The notes under the pieces are model-generated. The model made no database searches. It was not told the DNA's origin and saw only the letters and a list, made by a program, of their open reading frames with translations. From Nitrospirota bacterium (lineage in GTDB: Bacteria; Nitrospirota; Thermodesulfovibrionia; Thermodesulfovibrionales; Magnetobacteriaceae), in NCBI GenBank assembly GCA_015233245.1, contig JADFYB010000006.1, positions 1 to 49,761 on the forward strand: a stretch of DNA of 49,761 bases, given 5' to 3'. The position numbers were made by a program, and so were the translations under genes. This document shows positions 9,909-39,274 of this stretch, one piece after another (within the stretch, counting starts at the first letter, position 1; every line of letters starts with the position of its first letter).

Positions 9909-9923
9909 ATGAACGGAGGCAAT

Positions 9924-11012
9924 ATGTTTCTTGAAAATAGTGGTTTTCAGCTGCCGGAAAATGTTTACCTGGAAGAGGAGACATATTCTCAGACTTATGG
10001 CAAATTGATTGCTGAACCATTGGAACGTGGTTACGGCATTACTATTGGAAATGCCCTCAGAAGGGTATTGCTCTCTTCGATAGAAGGTGCCGCTATAACT
10101 TCTGTTAAGATAGATGGTGTGTTCCATGAGTTTTCTACCGTAAAGGGTGTCAAAGAGGATGTTGTTGAGATAATTCTTAACTTAAAAAAACTAAGATTTA
10201 AACTGCACTCAGACGCTGAGATAATAGCCAGGATAAATGTTTCTGGTAAGAGAGAGGTAACGGCTCAGGATATAGAGGCTGATTCGGTTTTAGAGCTTTT
10301 AAACACAGATGCCCATATAGCCACTCTGGACGATGATGCTGAGTTTGTAGCAGAGCTTACAATAGACAAAGGGCGCGGTTATAAACAAGCTGAGGACTTA
10401 AAAAAAGAAGGAGCACCAATTGGTTTTATAGCAATAGATGCTGTGTTTACACCGATTAAGAAGGTGGTCCTTAATGTTGAAAAGACAAGGGTCGGGAAAG
10501 CCACAGATTATGATAAGTTGATTCTTGAGATATGGACGGATGGGAATTTAAGTCCAAAAGAGGCAGTAAGCACGGCAACTGCTATTTTGACTAAGCACAT
10601 GGGGTATTTCAGCTTTGCTGCAGAGGCTGTGGAATCCGCAGAGCAGGAGAATGTGTCTGAGGATGAGCCGGTTGTTGAGAGAGCAGAGACAGGAGATGAA
10701 CCGGCAGCGTATCAAAATCATGAGCAGCCTGTATCGTCTGCAACAAGAGACTTATACAAAAACCTTGTAAAGACAGTTGACGAGCTTGAGTTTTCAGTAA
10801 GAAGCCAGAACTGTTTAAAAAATGCTGACGTAAAGTATATCTATGATCTTGTCCAAAGAAGTGACAACGAGATGCTTAAGATGAAGAATTTTGGCAAGAA
10901 ATCGCTGGATGAAATCAGGGATGTGCTGTTAAGTTTAGGGCTGGATTTTAACATGAAAATAGACATGGATTTGGTAAAGAAGGAATTACTGGCTAAAAAC
11001 GGAGGGAAGTGA
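9924..11012 (+). CDS. rpoA: DNA-directed RNA polymerase alpha subunit
   Basis: This is a 362-residue alpha subunit. The N-terminal assembly domain shows EPLERGYGITIGNALRRVLL and SSIEGAAITSVKIDG. The C-terminal domain that contacts UP elements shows ELEFSVRSQNCLKNADVKYI and FGKKSLDEIRDVL. The linker (about residues 230-275) is long and acidic, which accounts for the size above the usual 330. The ATG at 9924 is chosen over 9909 because of CGGAGG five bases upstream. The stop overlaps rplQ. Confidence 0.97.
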   Translation: MFLENSGFQLPENVYLEEETYSQTYGKLIAEPLERGYGITIGNALRRVLLSSIEGAAITSVKIDGVFHEFSTVKGVKEDVVEIILNLKKLRFKLHSDAEIIARINVSGKREVTAQDIEADSVLELLNTDAHIATLDDDAEFVAELTIDKGRGYKQAEDLKKEGAPIGFIAIDAVFTPIKKVVLNVEKTRVGKATDYDKLILEIWTDGNLSPKEAVSTATAILTKHMGYFSFAAEAVESAEQENVSEDEPVVERAETGDEPAAYQNHEQPVSSATRDLYKNLVKTVDELEFSVRSQNCLKNADVKYIYDLVQRSDNEMLKMKNFGKKSLDEIRDVLLSLGLDFNMKIDMDLVKKELLAKNGGK

Positions 11013-11410
11013 TGCGCCACAAAGTAGCTGCAAGGCATTTTAACAGAACAGCGAATCAGCGAAAGGCATTATTCAGAAGTCTGCTGGTTGCCTTGATAGA
11101 GTATGAAAGAATAGAGACAACGGTAACAAAAGCCAAAGCGATAAAGGGTATGGCCGAAAAGATGGTAACTTTGGGTAAGCGAGGGGATTTACACGCAAAG
11201 CGTATAGCTTTTTCCGATGTCCCTTGCAGAAAGACAGTAGCCAAGTTATTTTCTGACATAGCACCGAGGTTTAGCGCAAGAAATGGCGGCTATTTGAGGA
11301 TAATTAAGACTCGTCGCCGGTTAAAAGACCAGGCTGAGCTGGCAGTTATAGAGTTTGTTGATTACGAGACTGCACATAAGCCCTCTGAGACTGTAAAGGG
11401 TAAGAAATAA
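11012..11410 (+). CDS. rplQ: 50S ribosomal protein L17
   Basis: This is a 132-residue L17: MRHKVAARHFNRTANQRKAL at the start, RIETTVTKAKAIKGMAEKMV and the basic YLRIIKTRRRLKDQAELAVIE end. It closes the alpha operon. The ATG at 11012 overlaps the rpoA stop (TGATG). Its own stop overlaps the ATG of the following tiny ORF (TAATG), so that ORF is translationally linked to it. Confidence 0.96.
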   Translation: MRHKVAARHFNRTANQRKALFRSLLVALIEYERIETTVTKAKAIKGMAEKMVTLGKRGDLHAKRIAFSDVPCRKTVAKLFSDIAPRFSARNGGYLRIIKTRRRLKDQAELAVIEFVDYETAHKPSETVKGKK

Positions 11411-11577
11411 TGTCAGACGCATGGGTTTTACTGGGTTTTTTGGTTCTCTGGATAGTGCTACAGGTTTTTATTTTCCCAAAGTTTGGGATAAGAACCTGAG
11501 CGACCAGCCATCAGGAGACGTGCTCTCCTGAGGATGATATTAGCAAAAAGACCAACACTGGCAGTTCAAAGAAGTAA
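11410..11577 (+). CDS. candidate small membrane selenoprotein (in-frame UGA at 11497-11499)
   Basis: The ATG overlaps the rplQ stop. The first 29 codons give MSDAWVLLGFLVLWIVLQVF and IFPKFGIRT, a single membrane helix. Then comes TGA, and the same frame stays open for 25 more codons (ATSHQETCSPEDD...) to a TAA. If the UGA is read as selenocysteine, the product is 55 residues, membrane-anchored, with a U-x7-C pair just outside the helix. A perfect 8-bp hairpin with its loop 20 nt after the UGA fits the bacterial SECIS model, and selA is in this window. From memory, small proteins ending in a PKLGV-T-C-like segment with cysteine at this position occur in related bacteria; I could not check this. 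The alternative is a plain 29-aa peptide. Confidence 0.6.
11511..11531 (+). promoter_or_regulatory. candidate bacterial SECIS hairpin
   Basis: TCAGGAGA (11511-11518), a loop CGTGC (11519-11523) and TCTCCTGA (11524-11531) form a perfect 8-bp stem. The loop begins 20 nt after the UGA at 11497-11499 and has G at its second position. Both properties belong to the published bacterial SECIS description: UGA-to-loop distance of about 16-37 nt and a G among the first two loop bases. No T-run follows (GGATGATATTAGC), which argues against an intrinsic terminator. Confidence 0.6.
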
Positions 11578-11643: not shown

Positions 11644-12654
11644 GTGTTAAAAGCATTATATTTGGTTTTCATTTTTCTTATTTTAGCAGAACCGGTTTAT
11701 GGAGCTGGCGCTTCTACACCGGTTTATGTAAATATTGTCGTTCACAACGAGGAGCCGGATGACACCCACCCTGATTATTTTAATAATCCACAGTACTATT
11801 TTGATGATCGGGCTAATCTTAGAGAGTTTGCCCTGATGGTGAAATCAAACGGGGCTGTTATGAATTTCCAGGCTGACTGGAACTATCTGCTTGCTGTTGC
11901 TTATTATGATGTTGGGGATGTGGTAAGCGACACAAACGGTAAGAATATAGTAAAATGGATGGTTGATGACCTGGGATTTGAGGTGGACCCTCACACACAT
12001 GAGACACTTTATAACTATGCAGATGTGGCTTATTTGATCACTCTGCTTGGTGTCACACCTTCAAAAAATGTCGGAGGGTTTTTATATTATCCTCCGGAAA
12101 GTGGATCATGGGAAAAGTTCACATTTGGGATATACGGCCTGCAGTTCCCCTCATATTTCTGGCAACCTGATAACCTCTGGGGAGCGGCTACGTATGACCA
12201 TAGTACACTGGATGACACAAGTTTCGGAGCTTGGAAGCCTACAAATGGATATGGCTTTTATGATCATGACCCGTCTCAGAGGCTGCTTTATATTGGAGGC
12301 GGCTGCGGCAGTATGTACGGGATAGCAGATCTGGTGATTGCTAAAGACAATGGAGGCTTAAATCCCAGTGGTTTTTATACTGCCTCTGTATTTATCCCCC
12401 AGACGATGTTGGATCCTCAGTTTATAACCACAGTTTCGGATTATATATTTACCATAGTGCCATACGTAATTGCCGATAAAGTGCAATGGATGACGCTTAC
12501 ACAGATAGCCAACATTTGGCGTACAAATTTTCCCAACATGCCTTCTCAGGTGGTATGCAACAGGGTTCCTGAAGGAATGCCTTTAGACGACAGCTCTGAG
12601 CACTGTCCGGTTCAGTCCTGCACCTATGTGGATCAACTGCAAAATAGTTATTGA
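11644..12654 (+). CDS. secreted protein, possibly polysaccharide-deacetylase-like
   Basis: This is a 336-residue protein with a signal peptide (MLKALYLVFIFLILAEPVYG, then AGAS). The mature part starts TPVYVNIVVHNEEPDDTHP and later has EVDPHTHETLYNYADVAYLI. A strand ending in an acidic residue followed by an H-x-H motif recalls NodB/deacetylase-type barrels, but I cannot place it firmly. Three cysteines near the C-terminus (VVCNRVPEG, EHCPVQSCTYV) may form disulfides. The GTG start has GAGGGGG upstream. It is one of three secreted proteins near the thrS-pheT breakpoint. Confidence 0.5.
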   Translation: MLKALYLVFIFLILAEPVYGAGASTPVYVNIVVHNEEPDDTHPDYFNNPQYYFDDRANLREFALMVKSNGAVMNFQADWNYLLAVAYYDVGDVVSDTNGKNIVKWMVDDLGFEVDPHTHETLYNYADVAYLITLLGVTPSKNVGGFLYYPPESGSWEKFTFGIYGLQFPSYFWQPDNLWGAATYDHSTLDDTSFGAWKPTNGYGFYDHDPSQRLLYIGGGCGSMYGIADLVIAKDNGGLNPSGFYTASVFIPQTMLDPQFITTVSDYIFTIVPYVIADKVQWMTLTQIANIWRTNFPNMPSQVVCNRVPEGMPLDDSSEHCPVQSCTYVDQLQNSY

Positions 12655-15731: not shown

Positions 15732-17084
15732 TTATTTAAAATAAGGGTGGGCAGTGTTTACCAAAACATTGTTTAGATTTACAGACCAATCATTGTTGTA
15801 AACCCTGTCTGCCATTTCAAGTATTGCGGCAAATGATGCTTTTTCTGTCAGGTTATCAATAGAATCAGAGTATCCCCAATACTCTGCATACTGCCAATCA
15901 GAGGGTTCAGTGTTTGCGTCTTTGTCAGGAAGTGAGGAGGAATCCAGCGATGAATCAATTAACAGCATGTAGGAACTATCAGGGTTTAATCTGACCCATA
16001 GACCTGCTGTTTTGTGGAATCCATCATAAGCCTGATGTATATGTGGTTTGTCATTTGCTACCTGTTTATGATCGCGATTGCCAAAAACAAGCATGATTTT
16101 AGTATTTAAATTATTTGAAGCAATTAGTGAATAATTATTAACAATTGAACGAAATGACCATAATTGTTTTGCTTCATCCGGTGTGGCTACATCCGATGGC
16201 CATGTTCGATTAGAGAACACGTTTTTATAGAGAGCATTTGTTAAATCCGTGGAGTATGTACGTTTCCCATAAATAGTAGGGAAATCGTCACTAAGAACAA
16301 AAGGATTAGAACTCTTAGAGTTAAAACAGGGACGTCCATCCGGGTAAAGACTACTGTTTACACACCAGCCTATGGTCGAATAATCAAGAGTGATACCACT
16401 TGAATGATAGTTGTCAGGATAACTATAATATGGATTATATTGTGCAACGCCGTCAGCATCGTAATAGCCTATTTCAAGAGCATAAATTTTATCCGCGGTA
16501 GGAGATTCCATTAAGACAAGATATGCCAAATTTTGTATATCAGCGCCATATTGAACTAAAAGATTAGTGGCCTCCATTCCTGGGTGTGAATAAGCATAAA
16601 TACCTACATTGTTTTGAAGCGGAGTAACCGGCATGATGTTTCCTATATAGTCTCCGTCAGCATTTTTATTCAGGCCCATACTAAAAAGAGCAATATCTCT
16701 TAATGCTTTAATCGAGTTTTGGCCACCATAATCAAAGGTGCCATCACTTTTAATATAGGTATTCCGTACACGTGCTTGTTGACCGGGCCATAAGAACTCC
16801 ACTGTAATAAAGCCCTGTCTATTAATATATGAATTGTCTAAAAAACTAATAGTTTCCAAAACCACCGGGGTAACGTAAATAATAACAGGAGCGCCGTCCG
16901 TATAGCGGGTAGTTGAAGGGTAGGTGATTTTTATTGCTACATTGCCAATGCTTTCAACATAAACATATGTATAAACTGATGTGCTTGTAACGGCCTTGGT
17001 ATTATCAGTAGTTTCGCTGTAACTATTTAAGCCACCACTTACAACAAAAAACAACACAAACAACGAGATGAAGAGGAATCTCAA
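15732..17084 (-). CDS. secreted alpha/beta-hydrolase-like protein
   Basis: This is a 450-residue protein with a signal peptide (FLFISLFVLFFVVSGGLNSY). Features suggesting an alpha/beta hydrolase are a strand followed by GIYAYSHPGMEATN, which could be a nucleophile elbow with Ser in YSHPG, and a late MLVFGNRDHKQVANDKPHIH segment carrying an Asp and His suited to the rest of a triad. The substrate is unknown. Its neighbour on the same strand is a secreted glycoside hydrolase, so a role in breaking down external polymers or modifying the envelope is possible but inferred. Confidence 0.5.
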   Translation of the reverse strand: MRFLFISLFVLFFVVSGGLNSYSETTDNTKAVTSTSVYTYVYVESIGNVAIKITYPSTTRYTDGAPVIIYVTPVVLETISFLDNSYINRQGFITVEFLWPGQQARVRNTYIKSDGTFDYGGQNSIKALRDIALFSMGLNKNADGDYIGNIMPVTPLQNNVGIYAYSHPGMEATNLLVQYGADIQNLAYLVLMESPTADKIYALEIGYYDADGVAQYNPYYSYPDNYHSSGITLDYSTIGWCVNSSLYPDGRPCFNSKSSNPFVLSDDFPTIYGKRTYSTDLTNALYKNVFSNRTWPSDVATPDEAKQLWSFRSIVNNYSLIASNNLNTKIMLVFGNRDHKQVANDKPHIHQAYDGFHKTAGLWVRLNPDSSYMLLIDSSLDSSSLPDKDANTEPSDWQYAEYWGYSDSIDNLTEKASFAAILEMADRVYNNDWSVNLNNVLVNTAHPYFK

Positions 17085-17236: not shown

Positions 17237-18616
17237 TCAATTAAGTTCTATGTAAACCGGTACTTGTCCAACACTTACCGATACAGTCCCTCCCTGGAAG
17301 TTATGAGTTTCTGAACTAAAGGCACTATTATAGCTGACTACATTAGCTCCGTTTAGATATGGGGGTACGGCTTTCGTTACCTTAGCCGTACTGTAACCGG
17401 TCTCAGATATGGTCACATATTTACTGTTTCCGGAGTCATTCCAGGCTATGTATAGGGGGTTATTATTTCTGAGAACCCTGTACACGTAGATGTTGTTATC
17501 TTGTAAGACCTCTTCAGTAGTGGACCAGTCACATCCATTAAGAGTTTCCACCATTTTTTTGTATGCGTAGTAGGCAAGTTTTTTGACTCCCACGCCCAAG
17601 TCATTTGTACCCACGCCATCGTAAATGACTCCCGTGTGGTCGAAGTAACTGTCGGTATTTTTAAACCCCTCGATTATACCGAAGGCTACAAATACCTTTT
17701 TTATGCCGAGAGATAAAGCATAAACATAGCGCTTTACATAGTCTGAAGCCTGTTGAGTTTCCGTCTGGGAATAATCCTCGTCAGAGGGTTTGCCGCTATA
17801 GGAGCCAAGTTCAGTAATCCATATAGGCGCAGAGGTAAAGCCTGCATCATCAAGTGTTTGCCGTATAGTGTTATAGACATCTTTTATGCCTTTATAGTCA
17901 CCGGTTGCATTACCATACCAGTGGAAGTCAAAGGCATCCACGTAGTTTCCATTAAGTTCGGTGATGAAGGGTTTGTAGTTTTTCTTGAAATCTTGCAGAT
18001 ACGTATCTGCCGGAGGAGTGCCGGGTACCCCCCCCATAAGTACGGTACAATCTGAACAAACAGCCTTGATAGCATCATAAGTTATTTGTTGTAGAGTGGC
18101 GAAACCATTTGCTATTTCTAAACTGGGCTCGTTGTCCACCTGCCAATATTTTACAGGGTTTTTGAGTCCCGGCATATCGTGTATACCATCGCCATCATAA
18201 CGCTCCACCACTGCCTTTACGAAATCCACATATGTGGTTGTGTCTGAGGGTACGTAAGAACCAGTCTTCGTGTATCCTGTTGAGGTTAAGTCATGTGCAG
18301 TTATGTTTCCAAGGATGTTTATTCCTGCAGGGACAGCGCCGTATTGTTTGTCCAGGAGGCTGAAATCATATTGTTTGACTGAAATCTTTTGTTGAATCAC
18401 AGACCAATATGCGTACACGGTCTCACGCGTCCATTTCAGGCCAAGATCGTTTGCTGCGTCAAAGGCTCCTCCGGAATATCCACTTTTGTAAACACTTGCC
18501 GGGTGAAACCCAAAAGGGTTTGCAATGGTGCTGTTGTCCGCACATTCCGTAACAGTAGTGTCCGAAAATGTTATAACAACTGATAGAACTACTATATATT
18601 TCAATATCTCTTTCAT
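17237..18616 (-). CDS. secreted clan GH-A glycoside-hydrolase-like protein
   Basis: This is a 459-residue protein with a signal sequence (LKYIVVLSVVITFSDTTVTE). The barrel shows the two catalytic glutamates expected of clan A: YWQVDNEPSLEIA (acid/base in NEP) and PIWITELGSYSGKPS (nucleophile in TEL). AFDFHWYGN lies between them at the conserved HWY/H position. A beta-sandwich-like tail (about residues 380-459) follows the barrel. The family resembles GH39/GH5-type enzymes but cannot be fixed by eye. ATG start with AAAGGAGATTAAC upstream. Confidence 0.7.
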   Translation of the reverse strand: MKEILKYIVVLSVVITFSDTTVTECADNSTIANPFGFHPASVYKSGYSGGAFDAANDLGLKWTRETVYAYWSVIQQKISVKQYDFSLLDKQYGAVPAGINILGNITAHDLTSTGYTKTGSYVPSDTTTYVDFVKAVVERYDGDGIHDMPGLKNPVKYWQVDNEPSLEIANGFATLQQITYDAIKAVCSDCTVLMGGVPGTPPADTYLQDFKKNYKPFITELNGNYVDAFDFHWYGNATGDYKGIKDVYNTIRQTLDDAGFTSAPIWITELGSYSGKPSDEDYSQTETQQASDYVKRYVYALSLGIKKVFVAFGIIEGFKNTDSYFDHTGVIYDGVGTNDLGVGVKKLAYYAYKKMVETLNGCDWSTTEEVLQDNNIYVYRVLRNNNPLYIAWNDSGNSKYVTISETGYSTAKVTKAVPPYLNGANVVSYNSAFSSETHNFQGGTVSVSVGQVPVYIELN

Positions 18617-37050: not shown

Positions 37051-38445
37051 TTACTTATCAATCTGTCTGAATATCTCTATTATCTCTTGTAACTGGCTGT
37101 CAAATATGGTTCTGGCATCCAGTATCAGGGTGTCGTCCTTAATTCGACCGATAAGTGGAGTTTTAGTAATTCTCGACAGTTTTTGCAATTGCTCAGCCGA
37201 TATTTCTGAGTGTTTGAGCAGTACCGTGTAAGTTTTAAATTTAACACAGGGTAGAGATCCTCCTCCGGCTTCTGAGTCATCCTCCCTGACGGTTACAGTA
37301 AAATTTGGGAGCGATTTTAATCCCTGCTCGATTTTAAGAGCACGCTCTTTTATTTTGTCGGGATCACACAGAAGCATTTCAAGAATTGGAATGTTTTTAG
37401 TTATATCATCTCCGTTGGCATATTCCATGAGTACTGATTCCATCGCAGATATTGTAAATTTATCCACTCTAAGAGCCCGTGCAAGCGGGTGTTTTCTTAA
37501 TAACTCTATGTGCTTTTGTTTGCCTGCTATAACTCCGCACTGGGGGCCGCCAAGGAGTTTATCTCCGCTAAACGTTACTATATCCACACCGGTTTTAACT
37601 ACCTCACTTACTACTGGCTCTGAGTGTATCCCCCACGGCTTAAGGTCAATAAGACATCCGCTGCCGAGATCATACATCAGGATTTTTGATGTCTTTGATA
37701 CCAGTTTTACTAAATCTGCTGTTTCTACCTCTTCGGTAAATCCGGTCAATTGAAAATTAGAGCGATGAACTTTTAAAATCAGCCCTGTGTTGTCAGTAAC
37801 AGCGTTTTCGTAGTCATAGAGATGAGTTTTGTTGGTCGTACCGACTTCTTTAAGTATTGCACCCCCTGCGGCCATTATATCGGGAATACGAAAAGAGCCA
37901 CCTATTTCTATTAGCTCTCCGCGTGAAACAATAACCTCTTTATTTAGAGATGTAAGTGCCGTAAGAGCCAAAAACACGGCAGCGGCATTGTTATTTACTA
38001 CCATGGCATCCTCAGCACCGGTCAACTCCTTAAGGAGTGCTCTTAAGTGGACATGCCGCTTACCCCTGCTGCCTGCCTTTAGGTCGTACTCAAGGTTAGA
38101 GTACCCTGAGGCTATCGTGGTCAGGTGTTTAAGGGTTTTGTCACTAAGTGGCGCTCTGCCAAGATTGGTGTGTATAACTATGCCGGTAGCATTTATCACA
38201 GGTTTTAGGCTAAAAGAGCCGCTTTCTAAGAGTTTTTTTTCTATTGCATCAGATATGTTACGGGAGATCTCGTTTTCAGCGCTGCCGGAAAGAAGCTCTG
38301 AGCGTCTTTCCTCAAGAACTTCCCTTATGGCCTTTAGAACAACTCTGCGTGGATACTCTTTCAGCCACTTTTGGGTCTCCTCCGATTGAAGTAATTTATC
38401 AACCGAAGGAAGCCCTCTTAACGCATTATTCCGTGTTTGTTGCAT
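37051..38445 (-). CDS. selA: L-seryl-tRNA(Sec) selenium transferase SelA
   Basis: This is a 464-residue PLP enzyme that converts seryl-tRNA(Sec) to selenocysteyl-tRNA(Sec). Diagnostic pieces are the N-terminal NNALRGLPSVDKLLQSEETQ, VINATGIVIHTNLGRAPLS, YDLGSGCLIDLKPWGI and the PLP lysine in IVTFSGDKLLGGPQCGVIAG. The ORF track starts at 38490; the ATG at 38445 matches the family N-terminus and still overlaps the upstream gene by 20 bases. selB and selC are not in the window. Its presence means this genome reads UGA as selenocysteine somewhere. Confidence 0.96.
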   Translation of the reverse strand: MQQTRNNALRGLPSVDKLLQSEETQKWLKEYPRRVVLKAIREVLEERRSELLSGSAENEISRNISDAIEKKLLESGSFSLKPVINATGIVIHTNLGRAPLSDKTLKHLTTIASGYSNLEYDLKAGSRGKRHVHLRALLKELTGAEDAMVVNNNAAAVFLALTALTSLNKEVIVSRGELIEIGGSFRIPDIMAAGGAILKEVGTTNKTHLYDYENAVTDNTGLILKVHRSNFQLTGFTEEVETADLVKLVSKTSKILMYDLGSGCLIDLKPWGIHSEPVVSEVVKTGVDIVTFSGDKLLGGPQCGVIAGKQKHIELLRKHPLARALRVDKFTISAMESVLMEYANGDDITKNIPILEMLLCDPDKIKERALKIEQGLKSLPNFTVTVREDDSEAGGGSLPCVKFKTYTVLLKHSEISAEQLQKLSRITKTPLIGRIKDDTLILDARTIFDSQLQEIIEIFRQIDK

Positions 38446-39274
38446 CAATAAATGGCATGGTTTGAGTGGTAACCTTAGGCATAATGCCATTCCACTTATC
38501 TATGGCCTTCATTGTGGCTTCAATTCTTCTTAGCTTGATAAGATCGGGTGAGATGTTTTCTTTTTGGAGTCTTAAAGCCTCAGCCTCAGCCTTTGCCTGT
38601 GTTATTTTCTGTTCAGCTTCTATTTTTATTCTGTCAAGGTCACGTGCAGCCTTTAGAGCCAACTGCTCAGCCGTCTGTTTAGACTCGATGGCCTCCATAA
38701 AGAGCTTTGAAAATGCGAAGTTGACTATTGAAACCTCATCCACAATGATAAAATGTTTGTGCAATCGTTCCATGAGACCGTCTTTCATTGCAGAGCTTAC
38801 AATGGGTCTTTTGGTTATCAGCTCCTCTGCCGTATATGTGGCTGCCACTGCCTTTACCACCTCCTGTATGGCAGGGTCTATGACTCTTTCCTTGTAGCTC
38901 ATACCAATGCTTTGATAAATCATATTTGCCTTATCGGGCAGTATGTGGTAGTTAATCGCTATTACTGTGGTAACCTCTTGCAGGTCACGCGATGAGGCCT
39001 CGGCATTTGTCTGTGCCTTGTGCACCTTTACGTCCATCTTTACCACTTTTTGCACCACAGGGATTACCACATGAATTCCCTCGCTAAGGACCATCGGCTG
39101 CACAGCTCCGAAGTTAAGCACGACACCTCTTTCGCCTGCCCCTATAGTAACAAAAGGATTTATTGCAAGAAGAACAAAGAACCCGATTATTATTAAAATA
39201 ATAAACAGGTAACTCTTCTTAAAAACCGGTTTCTGGATTTTTGGTTCAAAACCGTCAAATATACCACCTGGCAT
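38426..39274 (-). CDS. prohibitin/SPFH-family membrane protein (HflC-like)
   Basis: This is a 282-residue protein with one N-terminal membrane helix (YLFIILIIIGFFVLLAINPF). The SPFH domain (VTIGAGERGVVLNFGAVQPM, DLQEVTTVIAINYHILPDKA) follows, then a long coiled coil (EQLALKAARDLDRIKIEAEQ, KITQAKAEAEALRL). Such proteins form ring-like cages around membrane proteases such as FtsH. It overlaps selA at its 3' end. ATG with AGAGGAGGTC upstream. Confidence 0.88.
   Translation of the reverse strand: MPGGIFDGFEPKIQKPVFKKSYLFIILIIIGFFVLLAINPFVTIGAGERGVVLNFGAVQPMVLSEGIHVVIPVVQKVVKMDVKVHKAQTNAEASSRDLQEVTTVIAINYHILPDKANMIYQSIGMSYKERVIDPAIQEVVKAVAATYTAEELITKRPIVSSAMKDGLMERLHKHFIIVDEVSIVNFAFSKLFMEAIESKQTAEQLALKAARDLDRIKIEAEQKITQAKAEAEALRLQKENISPDLIKLRRIEATMKAIDKWNGIMPKVTTQTMPFIDATNTE

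Follow-up and report, generated by a model that had tools for sequence, protein, structure and literature searches.

A 55-residue membrane protein encoded next to rplQ: a probable member of a new, widespread family of bacterial selenoproteins

Organization of the locus

The window, by which we mean the whole analyzed stretch of 49,761 nucleotides from a Nitrospirota bacterium, contains the operon genes rpoA (9909..11012, + strand; Pfam RNA polymerase alpha domains) and rplQ, the latter coding for ribosomal protein L17 (11009..11410, +; Pfam PF01196, 115 bits). Translationally coupled to rplQ is a much shorter gene (11410..11577, +), the ATG of which at 11410 shares one base with the rplQ stop codon TAA at 11408-11410 (TAATG). 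When its TGA is read as selenocysteine (Sec), this frame codes for MSDAWVLLGFLVLWIVLQVFIFPKFGIRT-U-ATSHQETCSPEDDISKKTNTGSSKK, a 55-residue protein in which 29 residues are followed by the UGA codon (residue 30; 11497..11499, +), 25 sense codons and a TAA at 11575-11577. The original prediction, made from the DNA letters alone, had proposed a UGA-containing frame coupled to rplQ with 25 more sense codons before TAA, and this is correct to the base. The one membrane helix that it inferred is also recovered by AlphaFold2, which models a single helix over residues 3-25 (codons 11416..11484, +) at a pLDDT of about 90 and a disordered tail; with a mean pLDDT of 67, the model is informative for the helix only.

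Downstream of the UGA is a putative SECIS hairpin (11511..11531, +; conserved core 11514-11528) that reads TCAGGAGA-CGTGC-TCTCCTGA, with 8 bp, a 5-nt loop (11519-11523) and 19 nt between the UGA and the loop. The elements that had been predicted, namely an 8-bp stem, a 5-nt loop that begins 20 nt downstream of the UGA and a G at loop position 2, are all present. The codon for the protein's only Cys, Cys38 (11521..11523, +), lies inside this loop, giving a spacing from Sec of U-x7-C. The window also contains selA, coding for the Sec synthesis enzyme, as predicted (37051..38490, - strand; TIGR00474, 596 bits against a cut-off of 268), and the expected Sec pathway is borne out elsewhere in the genome by selB and a tRNA-Sec scoring 70.7 bits.

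The next ORF in the window (11644-12654, +) codes for 336 residues with a signal-peptide-like start and has no match in Pfam or NCBIfam. Two neighboring ORFs on the opposite strand (15732-17084 and 17237-18616, -), of 450 and 459 residues, have no NCBIfam match at 1e-10.

Homologues, Sec machinery and genomic context

The window protein used alone as a query found no match in named genomes, its patterns being too specific, while an alignment with X at the Sec position succeeded. The resulting scan of named genomes yielded 80 loci, 80/80 with UGA, from Nitrospirota, Acidobacteriota, Desulfuromonadales/Geobacter, Desulfobacterales, Myxococcales, Planctomycetota, Chthonomonadales and UBP1. A search across the window's order (Thermodesulfovibrionales) gave matches in 131 of 177 genomes, nearly all with one in-frame TGA at the same place and a few weak ones that are spurious; UGA homologues are present in about 125 of these 177 genomes. 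The profile search of the phylum (A1) matched 112 of 396 genomes: those of the window's order, four sister-order genomes from the same class, all four with UGA, and beyond these only weak matches. Phylum-wide searches built around one Geobacter carrier and one Acidobacteriota carrier matched 144 of 345 genomes (~143 with UGA) and 59 of 247 genomes (~57 with UGA), respectively, and their strong matches have TGA in all cases but one (genome G997). Other phyla are represented by single carriers. The carriers include the cultured Geothermobacter hydrogeniphilus HR-1 (locus L168). Overall, homologues with UGA at this site span about seven phyla and hundreds of genomes, and judged by these matches the family is much larger than had been supposed.

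The family consensus is M-x-D, a hydrophobic helix with W14, L17 and Q18, then V-L/F-P-K/R-L-G-V-P-T-U and a variable tail, within a total size of about 45-80 residues. Across phyla W14, P23 and G26 are invariant, and L17 is present in at least 90% of members. An open frame arising by chance had also been considered, and is ruled out by the homologues. One Geobacter genome (G439) has two paralogous copies (loci L193 and L262), both with UGA.

Homologues with Cys at the UGA position had been named as something to check, and the outcome is numerous UGA forms and only two Cys forms. Specifically, G997 has WVLPAMGIGT-C-MSGAC, and G1094, which came from a class-wide search, has WVLPRFGIPT-C-MSNSC. 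A selA search over 48 genomes of the class to which G997 belongs gave no match in either Cys genome, whereas selA was over cut-off in 26/26 UGA genomes of the same class and in 1/14 controls. The exact probability of this selA split between Cys and UGA genomes is 1 in 378 when phylogeny is ignored. As far as gene content can tell, Cys forms without selA set against UGA forms with selA is the classic Cys/Sec signature.

A similar association is observed for selB, which is over cut-off in 28/30 UGA carriers from outside Nitrospirota versus 2/14 controls, the remaining two carriers having selA. In the window's order selB is over cut-off in 160/177 genomes, and selA is found in six (G025, G033, G041, G042, G062 and G136) of the eight carriers that fall below the selB cut-off. 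Two genomes with the UGA form remain as exceptions: neither selA nor full selB was found in G101 (locus L096; 99% complete), and in G074 (locus L018) selA is without a match and selB is merely partial. These may reflect either an assembly gap or a recent loss of Sec decoding. Four genomes (G150, G168, G022 and G026) have neither selA nor selB, and the selenoprotein gene is absent from them as well. The gene is also absent from one family of the order (f10; 16 genomes, among them G111, G112, G113 and G126), the tested members of which have the Sec machinery. This is a clean lineage loss of the gene, and indicates that the gene is dispensable to organisms that use Sec.

Regarding gene neighborhoods, in Nitrospirota the gene comes after rpoA-rplQ and in most cases overlaps or directly adjoins the stop codon of rplQ, while in many Acidobacteriota it is located directly after an ArsR-family gene with conserved Cys and with an RND pump upstream. 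The ArsR-family gene ends almost at the selenoprotein start at loci L130, L138, L141, L144, L147, L158, L160, L178, L188 and others, a YgaP-like membrane protein is located upstream at one Acidobacteriota locus read closely (L167), and an FmdB-like zinc ribbon, recognized by sequence appearance, is often found downstream. The ArsR, RND and selenoprotein genes of Acidobacteriota look like an operon, possibly a redox- or sulfur-responsive unit. In G997, the genes on either side of the Cys form encode a disulfide reductase/rhodanese and a PIG-L deacetylase, and some Geobacter-type loci have CcdA-like and TlpA-like genes nearby on the opposite strand, again by sequence appearance. Automatic ORF neighbors in GC-rich loci are mostly spurious, and were used only if repeated or Pfam-confirmed. 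Comparison of the neighbors at these loci revealed no partner gene conserved across phyla. The theme of the context is thiol and sulfur redox without a universal partner, which leaves substrate claims weak; the ArsR/YgaP-like/RND arrangement in some Acidobacteriota hints, weakly, at reactive sulfur.

The hairpin and the tail beyond the UGA

The hairpin of the window is unconvincing by itself since the RNA folding that had been called for returned a modest single-sequence z-score of only -1.8, so the question was settled comparatively. The published bSECIS model has a loop of 3-9 nt, a G in the first two loop positions and a distance of 16-37 nt from the UGA (PMC13188914). With a stem of at least 5, this model is fitted by 86% of 234 family members, compared to 22% of codon-shuffled tails and 25% of random TGAs; with a stem of at least 4, by 94% of the family. 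The hairpin of the window fits the published model too, as had been claimed from its match to the bacterial SECIS description. In most of 158 unique loci, the stem has its innermost base 16-22 nt past the UGA, and the stem score is 13.9 versus 6.4 for codon-shuffled tails. Among 54 tails of equal spacing, 88.5% of cells are paired versus 68.1% when shuffled, and the covariation score is 0.599 versus 0.229 for shuffled tails (reached in 0/500) and at most 0.345 for slid versions. The innermost pair occurs as UA, AU, UG, CG, GC and GU. The hairpin thus shows strong compensatory change, and the comparative evidence goes beyond chance. These controls do not fully remove relatedness, with sliding and codon shuffling being concordant. 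When the region was compared with Rfam, nothing but irrelevant hits below threshold came back.

As the hairpin is inside the tail, part of the tail conservation is RNA-driven, and the tail amino acids indeed track the stem (ETCSP, VSCKT, EACTS, ESGTP). At the protein level, dN/dS over 64 pairs rises from 0.18 upstream of the UGA to 0.42 in tail codons 1-10, 0.56 in the rest of the tail and 0.73 past the stop; by this measure the part after the UGA is under coding-type, moderate purifying selection. Exactly one tail Cys is present in 145 of 159 unique members and none in 9 of the 159, while the first 29 residues have no Cys in any of them. The position of the tail Cys varies by lineage (5, 8, 13, 14, 15 and others), so that the layouts range between U-x4-C and about U-x20-C. 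In Nitrospirota, having the Cys at +8 excludes having one at another position, and vice versa (Fisher 1.6e-19, uncorrected for phylogeny). The nine Cys-less tails indicate that this Cys is not strictly essential. Net charge averages -0.9 over the first six residues and +1.05 over the nine before Sec; by the positive-inside rule we infer from this pattern that Sec and the tail are cytoplasmic. A lone tail Cys at movable positions suggests that there may be a Sec-Cys redox pair at the cytoplasmic membrane face. The U-x7-C redox pair originally envisaged just outside the membrane needs two refinements: this spacing is one layout among several, and the predicted face is the cytoplasmic one. The pairing itself is inferred.

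Three outcomes would have refuted the original prediction, these being no homologue with Cys or UGA at the position, a tail not conserved between relatives, and absence of selB/selC from the genome. None of these was met, and in the case of the tail it is the lone Cys and the SECIS hairpin that are kept, under moderate purifying selection.

Interpretation and relation to known systems

In our interpretation the gene codes for a true selenoprotein, one that belongs to a new bacterial family of wide distribution and has a proposed membrane redox role, and to this interpretation we assign a probability of roughly 0.88. An alternative is that the UGA is an ordinary stop ending a 29-residue membrane microprotein, with the hairpin being a terminator, attenuator or mRNA-stability element. 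A single-helix product of 29 residues is plausible by size, the z-score of the hairpin is modest, and the tail has a higher dN/dS than the part that precedes the UGA. Yet an ordinary stop should drift to TAA or TAG, and the strong matches carry TGA except for two, both of which have Cys without selA, so that the Cys/selA correlation strongly disfavors a stop codon. The G of a SECIS loop is also present in the hairpin, and the tail retains one Cys. Moreover, the first description had called a terminator a poor alternative for want of a T-run, and no terminator-like T-run was found after the hairpin of the window; since the hairpin in addition keeps a position locked to the UGA in unrelated operons, a terminator or attenuator reading of it is rejected, and termination at the UGA as a whole is very improbable. 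Tail conservation backs read-through itself, which would also be compatible with insertion of another amino acid, by Trp or near-cognate suppressor decoding. However, UGA ends many genes here, including 36/109 of the tails themselves, the carriers are Sec-decoding genomes, the observed substitution is Cys and the hairpin fits a SECIS, all of which render decoding as anything other than Sec scarcely credible.

Harder to dismiss, but still unlikely, is that the protein is a selenoprotein but uses Sec and the tail Cys to bind a metal, or as a subunit contact in a larger membrane complex, instead of as a redox pair. The tiny size of the protein and the conserved W14, P23 and G26 in or just after the helix do suggest partners, and RND and FmdB-like zinc-ribbon genes adjoin the gene in many Acidobacteriota. 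On the other hand, the free spacing of the Cys is easier to reconcile with a flexible resolving thiol than with a metal site of fixed layout, and no partner gene is conserved across phyla. The product is, on the sequence evidence and without any direct evidence for selenium, almost certainly a selenoprotein; a redox pairing of Sec with the lone Cys is an inference that we consider likely.

In the mechanism that we propose for this selenoprotein, the UGA is read as Sec via the SECIS hairpin using SelA, SelB and tRNA-Sec, a step supported by the sequence evidence. The remaining steps are inferred. The product would be a single-pass membrane protein with its N-terminus out and its C-terminus in. 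Its Sec would be located at the cytoplasmic face, some five residues beyond the helix, and the remainder would form a short tail, disordered and charged, that contains a single cysteine. The selenol may react at the membrane surface with an oxidised or sulfane-sulfur substrate such as a peroxide, persulfide or disulfide. The tail cysteine would resolve this by forming an intramolecular selenenyl-sulfide, which would then be reduced by a cytosolic thiol system. Any particular class of substrate is guesswork and, taken singly, is less likely than not. Co-production with the rpoA-rplQ operon in Thermodesulfovibrionales implies that expression there should be constitutive and linked to growth. It is also possible, though we hold this only tentatively and with more doubt than belief, that these proteins constitute an ancient, uncatalogued kind of membrane-surface selenoprotein of about 45-80 residues with one helix, Sec at the cytoplasmic interface and a single resolving cysteine of movable position. 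Their substrate at the membrane would be sulfane sulfur or peroxide, they would occur widely among anaerobes and soil bacteria, and one class would make them together with the ribosome as a housekeeping protein.

Of the genomes sampled in three groups, between about one quarter and three quarters contain a member, and the family may rank among the commoner bacterial selenoproteins. On our interpretation tiny membrane selenoproteins exist in bacteria, with a possible role of selenium at the inner membrane of Geobacter-like, Acidobacteriota and Thermodesulfovibrionales organisms that is directly testable. Members from several phyla have no significant match in Pfam or NCBIfam (20.0, June 2026), PDB sequence profiles gave no relative and a plasmid collection gave no match. 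The 2026 inventory of 119 prokaryotic selenoprotein families (PMC13188914, Table 1) has nothing of the same size, layout or motif, and the window family is not among the families that this table attributes to Haft (PMC12013261, PMC9879109). A literature text search for the motif string found nothing. The family is a new one with a layout not previously listed for bacteria, with the reservation that an earlier mention elsewhere is not excluded, and has probably remained uncatalogued because annotation programs read the Sec codon as a stop. Bacterial selenoprotein catalogues depend mostly on Cys/Sec pairs and on noticeably long proteins. With Cys forms being very rare and with only 29 codons before the UGA, the family escapes both of these filters.

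The closest comparison is with bacterial selenoproteins that have an in-frame SECIS (119 families/subfamilies; PMC13188914, Table 1), with which the window family shares an in-frame UGA with a bSECIS immediately downstream, Cys homologues in Sec-less genomes and Sec machinery in the genome. It differs in that Table 1 contains no single-pass family of 45-80 residues with GVPT-U and one movable Cys. A second comparison is with the E. coli ygaV-ygaP operon, where YgaV is an ArsR-type regulator of ygaVP that responds to sulfide (PMC9774250). Many Acidobacteriota members likewise directly follow an ArsR-family gene, with the YgaP-like protein at L167 upstream; however, the selenoprotein has no rhodanese domain, and this context is absent in Nitrospirota and was not seen in the Desulfobacterota loci. 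Finally, without claiming homology, eukaryotic SELENOS and selenoprotein K appear to work alike in being small membrane proteins with a Sec-bearing tail, and SelS is reported to form a Sec188-Cys174 selenosulfide (PMC3628699). The eukaryotic proteins use a different type of SECIS, and in SelS the Sec is the penultimate residue, distant from the membrane and preceded by its Cys, whereas in the window family Sec adjoins the helix and the Cys comes after it.
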